DNA of 64,000 nucleotides from Polyangiaceae bacterium (GTDB taxonomy: Bacteria > Myxococcota_A > Polyangia > Polyangiales > Polyangiaceae). Numbering within the stretch: the stretch's first letter is position 1; each line of letters begins with the position of its first letter. A program made the position numbers and the translations under genes. Where the stretch lies: assembly GCA_015075635.1 (NCBI GenBank), contig JABTUA010000002.1, positions 1,426,001-1,490,000 on the forward strand. Reading direction: 5' to 3'. Shown in pieces: positions 32,021-49,624 of the stretch. Under the pieces are notes generated by a model. That model made no database searches. It saw only the letters and a list, made by a program, of their open reading frames with translations, and was not told where the DNA came from.

Positions 32021-33022
32021 ATGAACCTGGTGGTGGCAGTGGTCGGTGCGACCGGCGCGGTCGGTCGCGAAATGCTCCGTACCTTGGAGCGGCGAGAGTT
32101 CCCGGCGGAGCGCGTGATCGCGCTCGCCTCCGCCAGGAGCGCCGGCAAGAAGCTGCCGTTCCGCGGCGAGGAGCTCACGGTCGAGACCCTTGGGCCGAAG
32201 TCGTTCGAGGGCGTGAAGATCGCGCTCTTCAGCGCCGGCGCCGCCGTCTCCCGCGAGTACGGTCCCATCGCCGCCGCGGCCGGCGCCGTGGTCATCGACA
32301 ACTCGAGCGCCTGGCGCATGGACGACGAGGTCCCGCTCGTGGTGCCGGAGGTGAACCCGCAGGCGGTGATGCACCGCAAGAAGGGCATCATCGCCAACCC
32401 CAACTGCAGCACCATCCAGATGGTGGTGGCGCTCAAGCCGCTGCACGACGAGGCGCGCATCCGGCACATCGTGGTCAGCACCTACCAGGCCACGAGCGGC
32501 AAGGGTCACGCGGCCGTCGAGGAGCTGGAGACGCAGATCGCCGCCATCGCCAGCGGCAAGCAGCCCGAGCCGAAGATCTTCCCGGGCCAGATGGCGATGA
32601 ACGTGCTCTCCGACTGGAAGCCGGGCAAGGACGGCTACAGCGAGGAAGAGCTGAAGATGGTCAACGAGACCCGCAAGATCATGGGCGACGCGGAGATCGG
32701 CGTGACCCCGACCTGCGTGCGCGTGCCCGTCGTGACCGGTCACAGCGAGAGCGTTCACGTGCGCTTCGAGCGTCCGCTCAGCGCGGCCCGCGCCCGCGAG
32801 CTCCTTGCCAAGGCGCCCGGCATCGTGCTGGTGGACGACGGCAACTACGCACCGGGCAAGGAGCCGCAGCCGCTCCAGGCCGCCGACACCGATCCGGTCT
32901 ACGTCGGTCGCGTGCGCGACGACCTGGCGGTGCCCGGCGCGCTCAACCTGTGGGTGGTGGCGGACAACCTGCGCAAAGGCGCCGCGCTGAACGCCGTGCA
33001 GATCGCCGAGCTCATCGCATGA
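32021..33022 (+). CDS. asd: Aspartate-semialdehyde dehydrogenase
   Basis: A 333-residue NADPH-dependent enzyme that reduces aspartyl phosphate to aspartate semialdehyde, for lysine/DAP, threonine and methionine. The Rossmann loop VGATGAVGREML is at the N-terminus, the active-site Cys lies in NPNCSTIQMV, and substrate binding is near STYQATSGKGHAAVEELE. Length fits bacterial Asd. Its stop overlaps the thyX start (ATGA), so both are on one message. The ATG at 32021 precedes the first Rossmann strand. Confidence 0.95.
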   Translation: MNLVVAVVGATGAVGREMLRTLERREFPAERVIALASARSAGKKLPFRGEELTVETLGPKSFEGVKIALFSAGAAVSREYGPIAAAAGAVVIDNSSAWRMDDEVPLVVPEVNPQAVMHRKKGIIANPNCSTIQMVVALKPLHDEARIRHIVVSTYQATSGKGHAAVEELETQIAAIASGKQPEPKIFPGQMAMNVLSDWKPGKDGYSEEELKMVNETRKIMGDAEIGVTPTCVRVPVVTGHSESVHVRFERPLSAARARELLAKAPGIVLVDDGNYAPGKEPQPLQAADTDPVYVGRVRDDLAVPGALNLWVVADNLRKGAALNAVQIAELIA

Positions 33023-34614
33023 CCGAGACGAGCCGCCCCGTCTCCCCCGGCGCCGAGCAGATCCTCGGCCTCTACTTCCCGGTGCTCGACCACGGCTTCG
33101 TGTCGCTGGTCGATTACATGGGCACCGACGAGTGCATCGAGCGCGCCGCCCGCGTGAGCTACGGTTACGGCACACGCAAGGCGCAGATGACCCGCGGCCT
33201 GCTCCGCTACCTGCGCCGCCACCTGCACACCACGCCCACGGAGATGGTGGAGCTGAAGTTCCACTGCTGTATGCCGATGTTCGTGGCAAGGCAGTGGATT
33301 CGTCACAGGACGGCGTGCCTGGCGGGAGACGCGCTCCTCCACTTCGACCTCCCAGGTGCCGAGAAGCGCGGCAGACGGCAGCGCCACAACGTGACTATCG
33401 CCGACTTCCACCGCATGTGGACGCAGGGGACGGCGCACCGAGACTCCCTCTCGCGCATGCGCCTCCGCAGCTGCGATGAGGAGACCGGCGAGGTCATCCA
33501 CACGAGCGTCGTGGACGTGTGGGAGAGCGGGGTGAAGCCCGTCTTCCGGGTCACGCTGGAGAACGGCTACACCCTGAAGATGTCGAAGGACCACCGCTGC
33601 CTCACCGAGCGCGGTTGGCTGACGCTGGAGCAGGCGACGGGGGTTCGCCTGACCTCGGGGAACGCCGTGACTTGGAACGGCGACGCGCCGGCCTTCGCGG
33701 TGAACGGTACGCCGGCCTACCGAGATCGAGACTGGCTCCGCGCGCGGCGCGCCGAGGGGCTCAGCGTCGATGAAATCACCTCGCGGGCGGCCCTGACTCT
33801 GGTGCGAACGTTCTCCAGAGTCGCCCGCATCGACTACGTCGGCGAGGAGATGACCTACGACCTGGAGGTCGCGGGGCCATATCACAACTTCGTCGCAGAC
33901 GGCTTCATCGTGCACAACAGCGTGAACGAGTACTCGGGGCGCTACTCCCTCATGCCCATGCTCTTCTACACCCCGAGCGAAGAGCAGCTCCAGACCCAGA
34001 GCGCGAAGAACAACCAGGGGCGCAGCGGCCAGAGCGTGCCGGCGGAGCAGTACCAGGAGGCCGTCGCGCGCTGGAACGAGATCCGAAGGCTCTCCCAGTC
34101 CGCCTACGAGTGGATGACGAACCAGGAGATGGCGCGGGAGCTCGCGCGCATCGACCTGCCGCTGTCCACGTACACGCAGTGGTACTGGAAGATCGACCTG
34201 CACAACCTGCAACACTTCCTCAAGCTCCGGGTGGACAGCCACGCGCAGTGGGAGATCCAGGAGTACGGGCGCGTGATGGCGGGCATGCTGAAGAAGCTGG
34301 CGCCGCACTCCTACGAGGCCTGGATCGACTACGACGTGTGCGGCTCGCGTTTGAGCCGCATGGAGCTCGAGGCGCTCCGCAAGCTGGTCAGCGCCAAGGC
34401 CGATGGCCTGAGCGCCACCGGCGCGAGCCTCGACACGCCGGCGCTGGAGGCCTTGGGCCTGTCGAAGCGCGAGCAGGCCGAGCTGATCGAGAAGCTCTCG
34501 CCGATGGAGCGCCCCGACTTCGAGCTCGACCTGAGCCAGGCGAAGCCGCCGGAGCACTTCGCCGAGCGCATGAACGCCGCGGTGCCGAAGGGGGACGGGG
34601 CGCCGGTGGAGTGA
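33019..34614 (+). CDS. thyX: Flavin-dependent thymidylate synthase ThyX with an intein
   Basis: The 531-residue precursor contains a 330-residue ThyX and a 201-residue intein. ThyX methylates dUMP to dTMP using methylenetetrahydrofolate and FAD/NADPH. N-extein residues 1-99 end in ARQWIRHRTA; the C-extein resumes SVNEYSGRYS, together forming the RHRxxSxNExSxRY signature. The intein thus interrupts the catalytic motif, so without splicing no active enzyme would form. After the ThyX core there are about 70 extra C-terminal residues (near LSATGASLDTPALEALGLSK). Translation is coupled to asd by a 4-bp overlap. No thyA is seen in the window. Confidence 0.94.
   Translation: MTETSRPVSPGAEQILGLYFPVLDHGFVSLVDYMGTDECIERAARVSYGYGTRKAQMTRGLLRYLRRHLHTTPTEMVELKFHCCMPMFVARQWIRHRTACLAGDALLHFDLPGAEKRGRRQRHNVTIADFHRMWTQGTAHRDSLSRMRLRSCDEETGEVIHTSVVDVWESGVKPVFRVTLENGYTLKMSKDHRCLTERGWLTLEQATGVRLTSGNAVTWNGDAPAFAVNGTPAYRDRDWLRARRAEGLSVDEITSRAALTLVRTFSRVARIDYVGEEMTYDLEVAGPYHNFVADGFIVHNSVNEYSGRYSLMPMLFYTPSEEQLQTQSAKNNQGRSGQSVPAEQYQEAVARWNEIRRLSQSAYEWMTNQEMARELARIDLPLSTYTQWYWKIDLHNLQHFLKLRVDSHAQWEIQEYGRVMAGMLKKLAPHSYEAWIDYDVCGSRLSRMELEALRKLVSAKADGLSATGASLDTPALEALGLSKREQAELIEKLSPMERPDFELDLSQAKPPEHFAERMNAAVPKGDGAPVE
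33316..33918 (+). other. 201-residue intein inside ThyX
   Basis: The intein starts with Cys1 (CLAGDALLHFDL, block A) and ends with block G FIVHN before Ser+1, giving the residues needed for standard splicing: Cys1, penultimate His, C-terminal Asn and Ser+1. Block B is SKDHRCLTERGWLTLEQ and block F is near MTYDLEVAGPYHNFVADG. There is no LAGLIDADG endonuclease; the space instead holds a short helical stretch near PAYRDRDWLRARRAEGLSVD that resembles the helix-turn-helix found in some inteins and may be a remnant. At 201 residues it is somewhat above the minimum for a mini-intein. It lies exactly at the ThyX motif, a site that resists loss. Confidence 0.93.
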
Positions 34615-41538: not shown

Positions 41539-42765
41539 TCACGCCCGCTCGAACAAGAGCGCAGAGTTGTGCCCGCCGAAGCCCGCGCTGGTCTTGAGCG
41601 CGTAGCGCACGTCGGTGGGGCGCGCCTCGCGCACCAGGTCGATGGCGAACACCGGGTCGAGCTCGTCCACGTTGATGCTCGGGTGCAGCTTCTGATCGCG
41701 GAGCGAGCACACGCAGGCGATGGCCTCGGCGGCGCCGGCGCCGCCGAGCAGGTGGCCGATCATGCTCTTCGTGGCCGAGATCGGGATCTGCGCGAGCCCG
41801 TCGCCGAACACCGCCAGGAGCGCTTTGTATTCGGCCACGTCGCCGGCCGGGGTCGAGGTCGCGTGCGGGTTCAGGTAGCCGACCTCCGCCGGCTGGATCG
41901 CCGCGCGCCGGAGCGCGGCCTCGATCGCGAGCTTCAGGCCCAGGCCCTCCGGGTGCGGGCGCGTCACGTGCTCGGCGTCGCTCGACATGCCCCAGCCAAC
42001 GAGCCACGCGATGGGGCGCGCGCCGCGCCGCGCGGCGTGGGCCTCGCTCTCGAGCACCAGCGCGCCCGCGCCCTCGCCGATCACGAAGCCGCTGCGGTCC
42101 TTGTCGTAGGGCCGCGAGGCGCGCTTCGGATCACCCTTGAACGACTTGGCGAGCGCGCGGGCGTTGCCGAAGCCGGCGATGGTGCTGGGGCAGGTGGCTG
42201 CCTCGCCGCCACCGGCGATGACCACGTCGGCGTCGCCGCTCTGGATCAAGAGTGCGCCGAGCGCGATGGAGTGCGCGCTGGTCGCGCACGCGCTCGCCAC
42301 GTTGAAGCTCGGGCCCATGAAACCGAACTTGGTGGCGATCAGCCCCGCCAGCGCGTTCGGCATCGACGCCGGGATGAAATACGGGCTCACCGCACGCGGA
42401 CCGCGGGTCGCGACCCGCTGCACTTGCTCGACGAAGATCTCGACCGCGCCCTGCCCCGAGGACACCAGCGCCGCCACCCGCGTCTTGTCCACGTCCTCGA
42501 GCCGCGCCTGCCGGATGGCCTCGGTCGCCGCCGCGAGCCCGAGCTGCACGACGCGGCCGGTGTAGTCGATCTCGCGGGACTCGAGCACCGAGAGCGGGTC
42601 GAAGCCGCGCACGCTCGCCGCGATGTCGGTGCGGAGCTTGTCGGTCGAGAACTCGGTGATGAAGTCCACCCCGGAGCGCCCGGCGCACAGGCCCTGCCAG
42701 TAGGTCTCCACGTCGAGTCCCAGGGGGCTCAGGATCCCGAGTCCGGTGACGGCGACCTTCGGCAC
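41539..42765 (-). CDS. Beta-ketoacyl-ACP synthase (KAS II/FabF-type)
   Basis: A 408-residue condensing enzyme. The catalytic triad is complete: Cys160 in VASACATSAHS, His in LNPHATSTPAGD, and His in KSMIGHLLGG. KAS enzymes extend an acyl chain with malonyl-ACP. It is read away from the FAAL operon across 128 bp, so it may be the condensing enzyme of that pathway instead of the housekeeping fatty-acid copy. No FabG, FabZ or ACP is next to it on its own strand. The N-terminal VAVTGLGILSPLG is typical. Length matches FabF. Confidence 0.93.
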   Translation of the reverse strand: MPKVAVTGLGILSPLGLDVETYWQGLCAGRSGVDFITEFSTDKLRTDIAASVRGFDPLSVLESREIDYTGRVVQLGLAAATEAIRQARLEDVDKTRVAALVSSGQGAVEIFVEQVQRVATRGPRAVSPYFIPASMPNALAGLIATKFGFMGPSFNVASACATSAHSIALGALLIQSGDADVVIAGGGEAATCPSTIAGFGNARALAKSFKGDPKRASRPYDKDRSGFVIGEGAGALVLESEAHAARRGARPIAWLVGWGMSSDAEHVTRPHPEGLGLKLAIEAALRRAAIQPAEVGYLNPHATSTPAGDVAEYKALLAVFGDGLAQIPISATKSMIGHLLGGAGAAEAIACVCSLRDQKLHPSINVDELDPVFAIDLVREARPTDVRYALKTSAGFGGHNSALLFERA

Positions 42766-42893
42766 CCGAGGCTTCTAGCCCAGATCGGCGGAGCGAACGG
42801 CGCAGTTCTTTCCACCTCGCCGAGCCCGAGCGGGGTCCCCAGTTGATCCAAATCATTTCCGCCCGGCGCCGAGAGTGTTCCGACTCGGTGCAC
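42766..42893. promoter_or_regulatory. Divergent regulatory region between ketosynthase and FAAL operon
   Basis: These 128 bp separate the ketoacyl synthase from the five-gene operon and must hold promoters for both. No obvious -35/-10 or sigma-54 element is visible. If the two sides are one pathway, they may be co-regulated here. Confidence 0.35.
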
Positions 42894-44603
42894 ATGGCCG
42901 AATCGGACCTTGGGCCGGCGCTGCTCGAGAGCGCGGACCCCAACTCCCCACCCCACGAGACCCTGCTCGGCGCGCTCGACGCCGCGGTGGACAGCGGGGC
43001 ACCTTTCCTCACCCTGCACCAGGGGCGGCAGCGCACGGAGCTGACGTATCGTCAGGCTCGGGAGGGCGCCTGGCGCGTCGCCGCCGCGCTGCGCTCCCGC
43101 GGGATCCGGCGCGGGGACCGCGTGGCGCTCCTGGTACCGACCTCGGCCCTGTTCGTCGAGGCGCTGCTCGGCTCGATGTTGGCCGGGGCCATCCCGGTGC
43201 CGCTCGCCTCGCCGATGACCTTCGGCGGCGTCGAGCGCTACCTGAAGAACCTCACGGTCATCTTGAAGGACGCGGGGGCCGAGTGGCTCGTGACCTACCC
43301 GCGCATCAAGGAGGCCGTCGCCGGCGACGACACGCTTCGCGCGCTGCTCGGCAACGTGATCACGGAGGCCGATCTGGACGGCGCGGCGCCCATCGATCCT
43401 CGGAGCGCGTCGCTGTCCGGCTCGGACATCGCCTTCCTGCAATACACCTCGGGCACCACGGGCAAGCCCAAGGGCGTGATGATCTCGCACCGCGCTCTGG
43501 TCTCGAACACCTACGCCATCGCCCGCGGCATGTCGCAGACCGCCGACGACGTCGGCGTCAGCTGGCTGCCGCTCTTCCACGACATGGGCCTGATCGGCGC
43601 GCTGCTCCGGTCCATCTGCCACCCGGGCCCGCTGCACGTGATGCCGCCGGAGCGCTTCATCGTGAAGCCCATCGGCTGGCTCAAGCTGATGAGCGAGGTC
43701 GGCGCCACGCTCTCGCCGGCGCCGAACTTCGCCTACGATCTCTGCACCGCGCGCATCGCCGAGCTCGAGGACCTGCGCCTCGACCGCTGGCGCGTCGCGC
43801 TGAACGGCTCCGAGCCCGTACACGGCCCCACTCTCTCGCGTTTCTTCGAGAAATTCGGCCCGGTGGGCTTCGCCCCGAGCGCGATGATGCCGGTCTACGG
43901 CATGGCCGAGGCCACGCTCGCCGTGACCTTTTCTCCCGTGGGACGCGGCTCCGCCACGCTGGGCGTGGACCGCCGCACGCTCGAGGAGCAAGGCCGCGTG
44001 CTGCGCTCGAACGCGCCCGATGCACGGGCCGCCGTGTCGGTCGGCAAGCCGCTGGCCGGCACCCGCGTGTCGATCGTGGACGAGCACGGCAAGCAGGTCG
44101 AGGCCGGCGTGGTCGGCGAGGTGCGCGTGGCCGGGCCTTCGCTCATGGACGGCTACTTCAGGAACGACGAGGCCAGCGCAGCGGTGCTGAAGGACGGCTG
44201 GCTCTCCACCGGCGACCTCGGCTTCATCGCCGACGGCACGCTGTTCATCGCCGGCCGGGCCAAGGAGATGGTGATCAAGGCCGGCCGCAACCTCTACCCG
44301 TACGACGTCGAGCGCGTGGTCGGCGAGCTCGCCGGCGTGCGCTTGGGCGGAGTCGCCGCCTTCGGTCGCGAGAACGAGAGCACCGGCACCGACGACCTGG
44401 TCGTGGTGGCCGAGACCAGCGAGACGGATCCGACGGGCCGCGAGGCGCTCACCCGTGCCATTCGCGGTGAGGTCCTCGCCGTGCTCGGCATCGGCGTGGA
44501 CGACGTGCGCCTCTGGCCGGTCGGGGCGGTGCCGCGCACCTCCAGCGGCAAGATCCGTCGCAAGGAGTGCGCGCGCCTGGTCACGGAGGCGGGGCCCGCT
44601 TGA
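42894..44603 (+). CDS. Fatty-acyl-AMP ligase (FAAL-like)
   Basis: A 569-residue ANL-superfamily enzyme. The P-loop is YTSGTTGKPKGVMISH and the gate region SWLPLFHDMGLIGALLR is characteristic of FAALs; near the C-terminus the KEMVIKAGRNLYPYDVE (adenylation core) and the catalytic Lys in GKIRR are present. FAALs activate a fatty acid as the acyl-adenylate and transfer it to an ACP, not to CoA. The frame extends upstream to a TTG at 42843; ATG 42894 is the likely start. The stop overlaps the next start by 4 bp (TTGA), so the two genes are translationally coupled. It probably loads the ACP encoded two genes downstream. Confidence 0.9.
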   Translation: MAESDLGPALLESADPNSPPHETLLGALDAAVDSGAPFLTLHQGRQRTELTYRQAREGAWRVAAALRSRGIRRGDRVALLVPTSALFVEALLGSMLAGAIPVPLASPMTFGGVERYLKNLTVILKDAGAEWLVTYPRIKEAVAGDDTLRALLGNVITEADLDGAAPIDPRSASLSGSDIAFLQYTSGTTGKPKGVMISHRALVSNTYAIARGMSQTADDVGVSWLPLFHDMGLIGALLRSICHPGPLHVMPPERFIVKPIGWLKLMSEVGATLSPAPNFAYDLCTARIAELEDLRLDRWRVALNGSEPVHGPTLSRFFEKFGPVGFAPSAMMPVYGMAEATLAVTFSPVGRGSATLGVDRRTLEEQGRVLRSNAPDARAAVSVGKPLAGTRVSIVDEHGKQVEAGVVGEVRVAGPSLMDGYFRNDEASAAVLKDGWLSTGDLGFIADGTLFIAGRAKEMVIKAGRNLYPYDVERVVGELAGVRLGGVAAFGRENESTGTDDLVVVAETSETDPTGREALTRAIRGEVLAVLGIGVDDVRLWPVGAVPRTSSGKIRRKECARLVTEAGPA

Positions 44604-45616
44604 AGCGCGCGCTGGTCATCGGTGGCACCGGGTTCATCGGCGTGAACCTGGTGGACGCGTTGCTCGCGGAGGGCGTCGCCGTGCGCGTGACGACCCGCCC
44701 GGGCAGCGCGACTCTGCTCCTGCGCAAGCGCGCGGTCGAGCGCGCGCCGGCGTCGCTGGAGGAGCCGGAGGCCCTCTGCCGCGCCATGGACGGCTGTGAC
44801 ACGGTGTTCCTCACCGGCGCGTATTACCCCCGCTACTCGCTGGATCTCGACGCCGCCCTCGCCGAAGGCGTACCGGGCGTGAAGAACGCTTGTGACGCCG
44901 CCCTGGCCGCTGGCGTCGAGCGCTTCGTCTACACCTCCACCATCGCCACCCTCGCGGCTGCGCCCGCGGGCCGCCTCGCCGACGAGCGCGACGTGATGGC
45001 CGAGATGCCCACGGGCAGCGTGTACCGCGCGGTGAAGTGGGCCATGGAGCAGGAGGTCGAGGCGGCGCGCGCGCGCGGACTGCCGGTGGTGACGCTCCTG
45101 CCGGGCGGCTGCGTCGGACCGAACGACGTCCGCGTCGGCACCGGCGCCTTCATCGTCGGCGTGGTGCGCGGTCTCTTGCCCTGGCTCGTGGACGGCACCG
45201 TGAACATGGTGGACGTCGCCGACGTCGCGAAGGCTCACGTGCGCGCGGCCCGCGCCGAGAGCGGCGCGCGCTTCTGCCTGGGCGGCCACGACATGCAGAT
45301 CCGCGCGCTGCTCGAGCGCGTGCAGAGGCGCTACGGTGGCCGCGTCCCGACGCTCGAGCTCGACCCCGAGGAGGCCCGCGCCCGCGCCGAGGCCGACGAG
45401 CGCGCCGCCGCACCCAAGCGCGAGCGCGTGCCGGTCCCGCGCGAGATGGTCGATCTCATCACCACGGGGCAGCCCGTGTCGAACGCCCGCGCCGAGCGAG
45501 AGCTCGGCATCGAGTTCACCCCCTTGGACGAAGCCTTGGACCGCGCGCACGCCTGGTTCGCGAAGCTCAAGCTCGTCCCAGCCGTCGAATCCCGGAGGAA
45601 TCATGAGCACGCCTAA
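44600..45616 (+). CDS. NAD-dependent epimerase/dehydratase-family reductase
   Basis: A 338-residue extended short-chain dehydrogenase. The cofactor loop is VIGGTGFIGVNL and the active site is YRAVKWAMEQE with an upstream Ser/Thr in YTSTIATLA. It resembles the dihydroflavonol-4-reductase/3-beta-hydroxysteroid-dehydrogenase branch, and in a lipid pathway would reduce a beta-keto or aldehyde group (compare OleD). A TTG at 44600 overlaps the FAAL stop; this start places the motif at residue 8, as expected. The next gene overlaps by 14 bp. Confidence 0.87.
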   Translation: MKRALVIGGTGFIGVNLVDALLAEGVAVRVTTRPGSATLLLRKRAVERAPASLEEPEALCRAMDGCDTVFLTGAYYPRYSLDLDAALAEGVPGVKNACDAALAAGVERFVYTSTIATLAAAPAGRLADERDVMAEMPTGSVYRAVKWAMEQEVEAARARGLPVVTLLPGGCVGPNDVRVGTGAFIVGVVRGLLPWLVDGTVNMVDVADVAKAHVRAARAESGARFCLGGHDMQIRALLERVQRRYGGRVPTLELDPEEARARAEADERAAAPKRERVPVPREMVDLITTGQPVSNARAERELGIEFTPLDEALDRAHAWFAKLKLVPAVESRRNHEHA

Positions 45617-45878
45617 CGCCCCGAGCCGCGACCGTGTGGTCGCCATGGTCGCCAAAATCCTGAAGCTGGACGCCGCCAAGATCAGCGGCAGCGATCGACT
45701 GCGCGAGGATCTGGGCATGGACTCCCTGGCGAGCCTCGAGCTCCTGTCCTGCATCAGCGACGAGCTGGACGTGGACATCGAGCTCGACGAGGCCATGGAG
45801 CTCGTCACCATCGACGACGCGTGCTCCTTCGTGGACCGCGTCACCCTGGAGCAACGTGGCGCAAGCGCCGCCTCCTGA
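45603..45878 (+). CDS. Acyl carrier protein
   Basis: A 91-residue ACP. The 4'-phosphopantetheine site is Ser41 in LREDLGMDSLASLELL, and the fold is acidic and helical (SDELDVDIELDEAM). The ATG lies inside the reductase gene (14-bp overlap) and the downstream acyl-CoA dehydrogenase overlaps it by 23 bp, so expression is strictly coupled. It is probably the carrier loaded by the FAAL two genes upstream. No phosphopantetheinyl transferase is in the window. Confidence 0.92.
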   Translation: MSTPNAPSRDRVVAMVAKILKLDAAKISGSDRLREDLGMDSLASLELLSCISDELDVDIELDEAMELVTIDDACSFVDRVTLEQRGASAAS

Positions 45879-47448
45879 GCCCGTCGCGATCGGGCTCGGC
45901 GATCCGGCGGCGCTCGGCGCCGGCCTGGCGGTCGCGCACGCCACCGCGGCGGAGGCCGAGGCGCTGCCGATGGTGCTCGGCGAGAGCAAGCGCCTGCTCG
46001 CGAGCCTGTGCGACGCCGCTCGCATCGATCGCGAGGGCGTCATTCCCCTGGAGGTCCGCCGCGCGCTCGGCGAAGCCGGGCTCTTCGGGCTCACGGTTCC
46101 GGACGCGCACGGCGGCGCGGGTTTCTCCCTCAAGGCTGCCTGCGCGGTGATCGCCGGAATGGCGGAGATCGAGCGCTCCACCGCCATCATGGTCGGCCTG
46201 CACTCGGGCCTGGGAACGCGCCCGCTGGTCGAGCTCGGCAGCCAGGAGCTGAAGGCCCAGATGCTGCCCGAGATCGCGGCCGGCGAGCGCATCGCGGCCT
46301 TCGGCGCCACCGAGGCCGAGGCGGGCTCGGATCTCACCGGCATCCGCACCACCGGCACGGAGGTGGACGGCGGCCTGCGCCTGGACGGCGAGAAGGTGTA
46401 CGTGACCAACGGCGGCTTCGCCGGCTGCTTCACGGTGCTCGCCCGCACTCCGGGCCTGGGCGGGGCGCGCGCTCACTCGCTGGTGTTCGTGCCCCGCGAC
46501 ACGACCGGCGTGAGCATCGGGCCCGAGGAGGAAAAGCTCGGCATCCGCGGCTCCTCCACCGTGACGGTCACGTTCGAGAACGCGGTCGTGCCCCGCTCGA
46601 TGATCCTGGGCGAGCCCGGCAAGGGCATCGAGCAGGCGCACGCGGCCCTCTCCTGGGGTCGCACGCTGATGGCGGCGGGCTGCGTCGGCACCGCGCGCGC
46701 CGCTCTCGAGCTCACGCTCTCCCACGTCACCTCGCGCCGGCAGTCCAATCGCCCCATCGGCGACTTCGGCGCTTCGCGTGCCCACGTCGCGCGCATGGCC
46801 TCGCGGCTCTACGCCAGCGAGACCCTGGTGCGCTGGGTGGGACACGCGCTCGCGAGCGGGCAACCCGTGGACGAGCTCTCGCTCGCGGCCAAGGTGCTGT
46901 GCAGCGAGGCGAGCTTCGAGATCTGCGATCGGGCCATCCAGCTCCACGGCGCGCTGGGCTTCATCGAGCCGACGGGCGTGGCGCGCCTGCTCCGCGACTG
47001 CCGCATCACCCGCATCTTCGAGGGCGCGAACGACGTGCTCCTGGTGCGGGGCGGGGCCGCGGTGCTGGGGCGCAAGCAGCTCGAGTCAGCGCGCTTTGCG
47101 CTGCCCGGACCGCTGGACCGCGAAGCCAAGGCCTGGGACGCGCTCCGCGCCCGCTTCGTGGACGCCTGCCTGAGCGTGCGCGCCGAGCACGGCGTGGGTG
47201 TGGTGCGGCACCAGCTGGTGCTCCAGGCCGTGGCCCGCGCGAACCTGGCGCTCACCGCGGCCCTCGCGTCGCTCCTGCGCGCGCACGCGCGACCCGACGA
47301 GGCCGCGCTGGCCAAGCACGCCGTCGAAGATCTGATGCTCGAAGCCGAAGAGCACCTGAACGACCTCGCGCGCGCGGTGCGCGACGAGTCCCGAGCCCAC
47401 GCGCTGAGCGAAGAGCTCTACGCATCGAAGAAAGAACCGTCGCCATGA
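45856..47448 (+). CDS. Acyl-CoA dehydrogenase-family flavoenzyme
   Basis: A 530-residue member of the acyl-CoA dehydrogenase superfamily, which introduces an alpha,beta double bond using FAD. Signature segments include the FATEAEAGSDLTGIR-like FGATEAEAGSDLTGIR, the LGIRGSSTVTVTFEN loop, and ASFEICDRAIQLHGALGFI with IFEGANDVLL near the C-terminus; the last 120 residues form an additional helical extension typical of longer members. In this operon the substrate may be the acyl-ACP. A GTG at 45856 starts inside the ACP gene, and the stop overlaps the radical SAM start (ATGA). Confidence 0.9.
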   Translation: MAQAPPPEPVAIGLGDPAALGAGLAVAHATAAEAEALPMVLGESKRLLASLCDAARIDREGVIPLEVRRALGEAGLFGLTVPDAHGGAGFSLKAACAVIAGMAEIERSTAIMVGLHSGLGTRPLVELGSQELKAQMLPEIAAGERIAAFGATEAEAGSDLTGIRTTGTEVDGGLRLDGEKVYVTNGGFAGCFTVLARTPGLGGARAHSLVFVPRDTTGVSIGPEEEKLGIRGSSTVTVTFENAVVPRSMILGEPGKGIEQAHAALSWGRTLMAAGCVGTARAALELTLSHVTSRRQSNRPIGDFGASRAHVARMASRLYASETLVRWVGHALASGQPVDELSLAAKVLCSEASFEICDRAIQLHGALGFIEPTGVARLLRDCRITRIFEGANDVLLVRGGAAVLGRKQLESARFALPGPLDREAKAWDALRARFVDACLSVRAEHGVGVVRHQLVLQAVARANLALTAALASLLRAHARPDEAALAKHAVEDLMLEAEEHLNDLARAVRDESRAHALSEELYASKKEPSP

Positions 47449-48737
47449 AGCTCCGCTTCGTCTACCCCAAGTTCTCCCGCCACGCCGAGCACCACCCGGA
47501 GCTGCGCGAGGCCGTACCCTGCAACGAGTACTTCGGCCCGCCGTCGCTCGGCATCGCCTGCCTGGCCGCGGTGACGCCCGAGAGCTGGGACTACGACTTC
47601 CGCGACGACCGCGTCGAAGACATCGGCCTCGACGACGACGTGGACCTGGTCGCGCTCTCGTTCTTCACGCCCGCCGCCACCCGCGGCCTCGAGCTGGCCG
47701 ACGAGTTCCGCGCGCGCGGCAAGAAGGTGGTGATGGGCGGCATCTTCCCCACCATGATGCCCGACGTGGCCGCGGCCCACGCCGACGCCATCGTCGTCGG
47801 CGAAGGTGAGGGCGTCTGGGGCGACGTGCTCGCCGACGCCAAGGCCGGCACGCTCGAGCCCCGCTACGGCGGCTCCGCGGTCGATCCCTCGACCTTGCCC
47901 CTGCCCAAGGTCGGCCTCTACATCGACAAGGAGAACGACGTCTACCGGCCCGACGACTACCCGGTGCAGATCGCCCGCGGCTGCCCGCTCAAGTGCTTCG
48001 CCTGCGTCTTGCCGACCAGCATGGGGCCGAAGCTCCGCCACTTCGGCACCGAGCACACGCTGGCGCAGATCGATCAGCTCGCCGAGCGCGGCAAGCTCGG
48101 CTCGCTCACCGAGGACACCAGCCTGTTCTTCGGCTCGGGAACCCAGCGCCGCTTCGGCTGGCTGCTCGACGCGCTGACCGAGCGCGACGGCCCGGCGCCC
48201 ATCAGCTACCTGGGCACCAGCATGCCGATGATCCGCGCCACCTCGAGCGAGTTCCTGACCCGCATGCGCAAGGCCGGCATCAACATGTTCTACCTGGTGG
48301 GCGGCTTCGATCCGTTCACGATGAAGGCCTTCACCGGCAAGCACCCCGACGCCCTTCAGAACGCCCACGACGCGGTGAAGAAGGCCTTCGATCACGGCAT
48401 CGAGCCGTACACCTCGTTCCTGGTCGGCAACGACGACGACGACGAGGGCACCTTCGATCGCATGCTCGAGTTCGCCGACAAAGCCGGCATCCGCAAGGCC
48501 GAGTTCGCCATCCTCACGCCCTACCCGGGCACCGCCATCTGGCAGCGCTTCGTGGCCGAGGAGCGCATCATCGACCGCACCTGGGCGCGCTACAACGACG
48601 CCAACGTGGTCTTCCGCCCCAAGCACATGAGCCCCGAGCGCCTGCTCGCGGGTTACCTGTACCTGTGGAAGGAGTTCTACCGCTCGCGGCAGGAGCTGCG
48701 GAGCCTGGGGCGGGAAGAGCGGACGATCCAGTTCTGA
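47445..48737 (+). CDS. Cobalamin-binding-type radical SAM enzyme
   Basis: A 430-residue enzyme. The N-terminal 150 residues look like a B12-binding Rossmann domain (VALSFFTPAATRGLELADEF, VMGGIFPTMMPD, VVGEGEG), without the DxHxxG motif, as in many BchE-like enzymes. The [4Fe-4S] motif is Cys180, Cys184 and Cys187 in RGCPLKCFAC. Such enzymes methylate or rearrange unactivated carbon. Last gene of the operon, ATGA-coupled to the dehydrogenase. The final 74 bp are copied at 50010, beyond a broken transposase, and the transposase frame runs antisense into this gene. Confidence 0.9.
   Translation: MKLRFVYPKFSRHAEHHPELREAVPCNEYFGPPSLGIACLAAVTPESWDYDFRDDRVEDIGLDDDVDLVALSFFTPAATRGLELADEFRARGKKVVMGGIFPTMMPDVAAAHADAIVVGEGEGVWGDVLADAKAGTLEPRYGGSAVDPSTLPLPKVGLYIDKENDVYRPDDYPVQIARGCPLKCFACVLPTSMGPKLRHFGTEHTLAQIDQLAERGKLGSLTEDTSLFFGSGTQRRFGWLLDALTERDGPAPISYLGTSMPMIRATSSEFLTRMRKAGINMFYLVGGFDPFTMKAFTGKHPDALQNAHDAVKKAFDHGIEPYTSFLVGNDDDDEGTFDRMLEFADKAGIRKAEFAILTPYPGTAIWQRFVAEERIIDRTWARYNDANVVFRPKHMSPERLLAGYLYLWKEFYRSRQELRSLGREERTIQF
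48664..48737 (+). repeat. 74-bp direct repeat, copy 1 (3' end of radical SAM gene)
   Basis: This copy is the final 23 codons and stop of the radical SAM gene. Copy 2 is at 50010-50083. 71 of 74 bases agree. The three differences are CGG to CGC, CTG to CTC and CGG to CGC; all are synonymous in the radical SAM frame. Confidence 0.92.
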
Positions 48738-49624
48738 CGCGCAGCCCTCCGGCGCTCGTGCGCTCGCCCACCTGCGATCGCTCTGGCTCGCCGCCTGCTA
48801 CGCCGCGGCGGCCCAGGGCGTGTCGGTGAGCGGTGAGCATGCTCGTCGAGGGCGAGCTCGGGCGGCATGTCGTCGCCGAGCTCGGGGTCGAGGCTCCGCC
48901 CGTGCGCTCGGAGGATCTTCTCGACTCGCGCCGCCGTGCGCGCCGCGACCTCGGCGATGTCGGCGTGTGTGGGTGTGTCGAGCACGCGGAACTCGAGCGG
49001 CGCCTGCGGGTCGTCGCCTTCGTGCACGTAGACGCCGTCGAGCACCAGCGAGTGGAAGTGGACGTTCAGGCGCAGCGCGCTGTCCGTCCTCTGCACCGCC
49101 ACCACGCCGCCCGTGTGCGCGTCTGCGACGCTCGCCAGCTCAAGCTCGCGCTTCGCTCGCCAGCGCAGCGAGCGGTCCACCTCCGCCATGAACGCGCTCA
49201 CCACCTCGGCGCAGAGCTTCCGGTCGTAGCCGAGCAGGGCGCGCAGTCCCCAGGGCAACGAGCAGATCCAGTGGCGGATGGGCACGCGGGGCAGAACACG
49301 CTCCTCGAGGTGCACCGCCGTGTCGGCCATGCGGCGCCCCACGCAGGACGGACAGAATCCGCGCTTCTTGCACGAAAACGCCACGAGCTCCGAGTACCCG
49401 CATTCACGGCAGACAAGATGCAGACAGCCGTGCTCGAGTCGCCCGCAGCGAAGGTATTCCTCGAACTCCTTCACCACGAAGCGCGGCAGTCCGCCGTGCT
49501 CCTCCGCGCGCTCGAGGAACGCCGGCCAGTGCTCCGCCACCGTCTGGTAGAGCACGGTGCTCTCCGGCCGGTGGCGAAGACGCGAGCGCTCGGGCTGTGC
49601 GAGCGCATGTGCAGGGTGGCCCAC
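48677..49624 (-). pseudogene. Truncated IS91-family (HUH/Y2) transposase
   Basis: The frame encodes a zinc-binding region (CRECGYSELVAFSCKKRGFC and CPSC) and the HUH nuclease motif LNVHFHSLVLDGVYV. IS91-type elements move by rolling-circle transposition. Homology stops near ELALDEH; the expected Tyr-containing C-terminal region is absent, and the frame then runs antisense into the radical SAM gene, ending at 48677. So this is a broken remnant. Reading the other strand at about 48770-48849 gives LAACYAAAAQGVSVSGEHA, which resembles the missing part of such transposases and suggests a small inversion at the palindrome GAGCATGCTC (48835-48844). Starts at ATG 49624. Confidence 0.78.

Follow-up and report, generated by a model that had tools for sequence, protein, structure and literature searches.

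The window, the whole 64-kb stretch of DNA analysed (G000:C2:1426001-1490000, where G000 is the source genome), holds at 42894-48737 on the forward strand a compact operon of five genes, encoding a FAAL, an extended SDR, an ACP, an acyl-CoA dehydrogenase-family flavoprotein (ACAD) and a radical SAM enzyme with a B12-binding domain (rSAM), with a gene for a β-ketoacyl-ACP synthase (KS) diverging from it (Table 1). The families of all six genes were confirmed with Pfam and NCBIfam, and both the gene content and the overlaps of 4, 14, 23 and 4 bp proposed in a first-pass annotation of this DNA proved correct. By eye, the catalytic signatures are apparently intact, including the Cys-His-His of KS, the DSL of ACP, the FEGxND glutamate of ACAD, the YxxxK of SDR and the CX3CX2C of rSAM. 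At its 3' end, the rSAM gene shares 61 bp with the end of a transposase remnant.

Table 1. Features of the cassette locus and of its surroundings in the window.
Feature	Positions	Strand	Start codon; overlap with preceding gene	Supporting matches
ThyX-type thymidylate synthase	32950-34614	+		Intein-splicing domain within the coding region
KS, FabF-like β-ketoacyl-ACP synthase, divergent neighbour	41539-42765	-		TIGR03150 477 bits (cut-off 494)
FAAL, AasR-like	42894-44603	+	ATG 42894 or TTG 42843	PF00501 233 bits; NCBIfam PRK09192 460 bits, under cut-off; nearest solved structure 3pbk
Extended SDR, NAD-dependent epimerase-family reductase	44600-45616	+	TTG 44600; 4 bp (FAAL stop 44603)	PF01370 85 bits; HpnA-like 215 bits (cut-off 367); nearest solved structure 3wj7
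ACP, DSL motif	45603-45878	+	ATG 45603; 14 bp (SDR stop 45616)	PF00550 49.5 bits
ACAD, acyl-CoA dehydrogenase-family flavoprotein	45856-47448	+	GTG 45856; 23 bp (ACP stop 45878)	PF00441, PF02770, PF02771; solved ACADs, including ACAD9
rSAM, B12-binding-domain radical SAM enzyme	47445-48737	+	ATG 47445; 4 bp (ACAD stop 47448)	PF02310, PF04055; CX3CX2C; structure model with pLDDT 93
IS91/ISCR-type transposase remnant	48677-49624	-		Family model matched over roughly its first half only

Of 379 Myxococcota genomes, 29 have the rSAM gene at an identity of at least 51%, and a scan of 84,980 species genomes with two short peptide patterns, which may miss distant relatives elsewhere, yielded 75 rSAM loci, about 71 of them belonging to this rSAM family. 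By record title, nearly all of these loci come from metagenome-assembled genomes labelled Myxococcota or Deltaproteobacteria; all named cassette hosts are metagenome-assembled genomes, nearly all from Myxococcota. Isolates could be behind two genomes, G000 with 5 contigs and G355 with 2. In a gene-order count that covers the database loci, G355 and the window, the exact order FAAL-SDR-ACP-ACAD-rSAM is found in 30 of 75 loci, and in about 34 further loci the set is reordered, truncated by a contig end or short of a member. Among the variants are SDR-ACP-rSAM-ACAD, with the FAAL gene before it (5 loci), after it (2) or not seen (5), and FAAL-ACP-rSAM-ACAD without SDR (5 loci); rSAM alone is found in 11 loci, some of them at contig ends. 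Since the same five genes recur in the same order in so many loci, with the partial and reordered sets besides, they are a real unit, linked far beyond chance. The pairwise correlations of the five protein distance matrices over 38 complete sets (0.78-0.91) are as expected for co-inheritance of the five genes, although they are not independent tests because the sequences share one tree. The genes are thus not unlinked in relatives: their linkage spans the phylum Myxococcota, which supports the earlier suggestion of a modified fatty acid or lipid built on a dedicated carrier.

Within G000, the rSAM of the window is present in a single copy at the threshold used, and there is no second FAAL of the class found in the cassette. 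Two sister genomes, G278 and G072, carry a second rSAM copy (L061 and L062, 77-79% identity) that has no counterpart in G000 and to which the other four genes are not adjacent in the DNA examined. In plasmid records we found only distant rSAM relatives, the best-ranked ten being at most 33% identical.

The KS gene stands apart from this unit. It does diverge from the operon, 77-128 bp from the FAAL start depending on the start chosen, and this proximity, together with six or seven further loci, from a second lineage, that have a KS gene near the cassette, would be in keeping with an integral KS that elongates the chain, in the six-gene pathway that had first been drawn. However, of the two sister genomes only G072 has a KS gene near its cassette, with one gene in between; there is none within 4.4 kb of the cassette in G278 and none near most cassettes, and in a small tree KS genes from the surroundings of other cassettes fall into a clade of their own, of a different lineage from the window KS, a FabF-like paralogue that shares 42% identity with its nearest relative among the other KSs of G000. 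On linkage and tree we rejected the KS as part of the conserved unit, we consider an elongating six-gene pathway very unlikely, and we treat the KS as an optional neighbour of the five-gene cassette.

The rSAM, too, can be separated from the other members. G090, G357 and G037, which belong to the same family, carry FAAL-SDR-ACP-ACAD, with FAALs 57-60% identical, and no B12-binding rSAM at the locus; the four-gene part can therefore stand alone, with rSAM as a separable step. Near the G090 locus a different radical SAM protein is encoded, and G037 has its homologue by sequence. As the rSAM gene moreover precedes the ACAD gene in one lineage, a radical SAM "finish" to the pathway is only a possibility.

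As to its family, rSAM has the features of a cobalamin-dependent radical SAM methyltransferase, with B12-binding and radical SAM domains and CX3CX2C. Every one of the 35 aligned members keeps the motif and has the B12-binding domain by Pfam, and the enzyme would presumably need B12. In fold, motif and B12-binding-type domain it is like TIGR04013, TIGR04072, MgmA, AprD4 and HpnR, but it falls far under the cut-off of every curated family compared, with 61 bits for TIGR04013 (cut-off 251), 37 for TIGR04072 (360), 36 for MgmA (360) and 32 for AprD4 (500). The best fold match of its predicted structure is AprD4 (Z 30.3), followed by MgmA (25.9), CysS, OxsB and TsrM, and the fold search retrieved no family closer than AprD4 and MgmA. 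Direct sequence comparison favours MgmA (55 bits) over AprD4 (42 bits), and methylation and dehydration are therefore both candidate reactions. AprD4 works together with a separate reductase, a part that SDR could play here, so that rSAM might be an AprD4-like radical dehydratase that acts without cobalamin and the cassette might strip a hydroxyl from the chain rather than add a methyl. While the fold ranking speaks for such a dehydratase, the higher sequence score of MgmA, a B12-dependent methylase, the B12-binding domain in every aligned member and the low AprD4 family score speak against it, and we consider it unlikely. Our first guess for the reaction is C-methylation at an unactivated carbon.

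Several observations touch on radical SAM enzymes more widely. In the near-complete genome G355, the rSAM (L066:9368-10657) reads RGCMLTRSAC, with the second Cys of CX3CX2C replaced by Arg, and is either a degenerate enzyme or the product of a sequence error. Sister rSAM families with 36-43% identity (L049-L055) lie in different gene contexts; in two of these loci (L054:9107-15366 and L055:7333-13669), four KS domains come after the sister rSAM (38-39% identity), with an ACP-like gene as well in L055, making these loci a putative different lipid cluster. Another radical SAM family, which lacks a B12-binding domain and is claimed by no curated family, occurs near the cassette in 9 loci (L118, e.g., L118:10303-11526, L066, L097, L099, L101, L108, L113, L119 and L129) and beside a FAAL gene in L214. 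On a Citrobacter portucalensis plasmid (L226, NZ_CP134684.1, 53665-63512), five radical SAM genes are clustered together with genes for a GH3-family protein, an N-acetyltransferase, a PAP2 phosphatase and a fatty acid desaturase.

Other neighbours of the cassettes include Cys-rich CRP/FNR-like regulators, small LuxR-type proteins with conserved cysteines and hemerythrin-like proteins, one or another of which is encoded nearby in 19 of 46 loci of at least 12 kb, in several lineages. The window has no gene of these three kinds, and redox control of the cassettes is a suggestion only. A tryptophanase-like β-eliminating lyase is encoded near the cassette, or near its rSAM-free version, in four loci (L110:14161-15675, L118:13165-14589, L139:10326-11711 and L212:6573-7946).

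The front of the operon recalls bacterial ceramide synthesis, a resemblance on which the first-pass annotation did not remark. In Caulobacter, the ceramide operon aasR-cerR-acpR-spt comprises CC_1165-1162, with an N-acyltransferase gene (CC_1154) nearby, and the roles of its genes have been described (PMC11324152). In E. coli BL21, a FAAL, an NAD-dependent epimerase-family protein, an ACP and a serine palmitoyltransferase (SPT) are encoded in this order, with yghO divergent beside them, and correspond to aasR, cerR, acpR and spt; AasR of Caulobacter and of E. coli B acylates AcpR only, and SPT prefers acyl-AcpR (PMC9386255). The overlap between the FAAL and SDR genes in E. coli BL21 is also 4 bp. 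The window FAAL is of the AasR type, with 36% identity (303 bits) to the E. coli BL21 protein. The window SDR matches CerR at only 27% identity (47 bits) and lies closer to HpnA-type proteins, itself under the cut-off for these, so that a clear CerR orthologue is not supported; between the window ACP and AcpR there is no local alignment, ACPs being short and divergent. With a FAAL match accompanied by a weak SDR match and none for ACP, we liken the FAAL-SDR-ACP module to the front of the ceramide operon, which it may resemble in its working, and do not class it as a member.

There is no SPT gene in the 64 kb of the window, and the SPT-like gene of G000 (C2:720146) lies about 750 kb from the cassette. 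Variant loci give stronger support for a tie to ceramide synthesis: in four of them (L123, L126, L127 and L128), a gene for an SPT-like PLP enzyme directly follows that of ACAD; the closest solved structures of these enzymes are serine palmitoyltransferases, and they score under the NCBIfam cut-offs. L126 has a GNAT-like, YghO-like gene downstream, as does L128, where it lies at the edge of the locus; the L126 protein belongs to the same family as E. coli YghO and is 47% identical to a protein encoded next to the SPT-like one in G000. From synteny, the YghO-like proteins would be ceramide N-acyltransferases. As the four SPT-linked loci form one clade, they possibly reflect one event. In G365, FAAL, ACP and YghO-like genes form a trio. 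YghO-like genes are found in 23 of 29 cassette genomes compared with 135 of 350 others (Fisher p 2e-5, in a test that ignores phylogeny and assembly gaps), and G062, which is 99% complete, has the rSAM and no YghO-like match. Elsewhere, a weak association is seen in L221, where an rSAM relative with 27% identity is encoded near a YghO-like gene; the other genomic YghO-like copies show no further link.

We conclude with high confidence that the cassette is a dedicated acyl-ACP tailoring operon, whose modified chain is probably, with moderate confidence, fed into sphingolipid-type synthesis. The reactions and their order, as we infer them, would begin with FAAL, which would activate a free long-chain fatty acid to acyl-AMP and load it on the ACP of the operon. 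ACAD, for which acyl-ACP is the presumed substrate, may then dehydrogenate the bound chain beside the thioester, or run in reverse; rSAM may introduce an oxygen-independent radical change, by chemistry that is itself oxygen-sensitive, with the methylation named above as first guess; and SDR may reduce a keto group. The finished chain would be condensed by another enzyme, in one lineage the SPT-like protein encoded next door and in G000 presumably SPT-like and YghO-like proteins acting from another locus. Because an SPT-like protein is encoded next to the cassette in one lineage, the product most likely ends up as the long-chain base in a membrane lipid of the sphingolipid type, a reading to which we give just under an even chance. 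The cassette may instead make a modified acyl chain, e.g., methyl-branched or unsaturated, that goes into ordinary membrane lipids or into a secreted small molecule, its ceramide-like order reflecting a reused acyl-ACP loading module. Around most cassettes, the DNA examined contains no SPT-like gene, sets of FAAL, ACP and ACAD are known from the mycobactin and lipopeptide pathways, and the SDR and ACP comparisons above point the same way; the SPT-like and YghO-like genes that adjoin the cassette in one clade, and the co-occurrence of the cassette with YghO-like genes, argue against it, and we regard a product outside the sphingolipids as a real possibility well short of even. The sphingolipid reading can be taken further, to a redox-regulated sphingolipid-type lipid made by uncultured Myxococcota, with a long-chain base that is radical-SAM-modified while the acyl chain is on its dedicated ACP; in this full form we find it doubtful.

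If tailoring for sphingolipid-type synthesis is indeed what the cassette does, it would represent an undescribed route, spread across much of the phylum, by which fatty chains are edited with oxygen-independent chemistry before they enter membrane lipids. Radical SAM tailoring would be added to what is known of bacterial ceramide synthesis, and an uncharacterised family of B12-binding rSAM enzymes would gain a defined substrate class, acyl-ACP. In groundwater, lakes and sediments, the product of the route might be used as a biomarker of uncultured Myxococcota.

The view of the first-pass annotation that the set matches no named cluster is borne out by the comparison with known systems, in which the ladderane, ole and mycobactin families all scored under their cut-offs; nor did we find a description of the five-gene set, or of a cluster equivalent to it, in the open-licence literature. 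We rejected a ladderane-type lipid rSAM on the TIGR04072 score given above, although this ladderane-associated family also belongs to a lipid pathway, and membership in the olefin (Ole) clusters on that of the OleD-equivalent reductase (59 bits, cut-off 580). Mycobactin MbtM-MbtL-MbtN shares FAAL, ACP and acyl-ACP dehydrogenase types with the cassette and provides a precedent for an ACAD-type enzyme acting on an ACP-bound chain, but it has neither rSAM nor SDR, and membership was rejected for scores of 305 bits for MbtM (cut-off 621) and 53 bits for MbtN (cut-off 700). With the ceramide operon, the cassette has in common the FAAL-SDR-ACP order, the 4-bp overlap between the first two genes and a homologous FAAL and, in one clade, the SPT-like and YghO-like genes, and it differs in carrying ACAD and rSAM where the ceramide operon has SPT.
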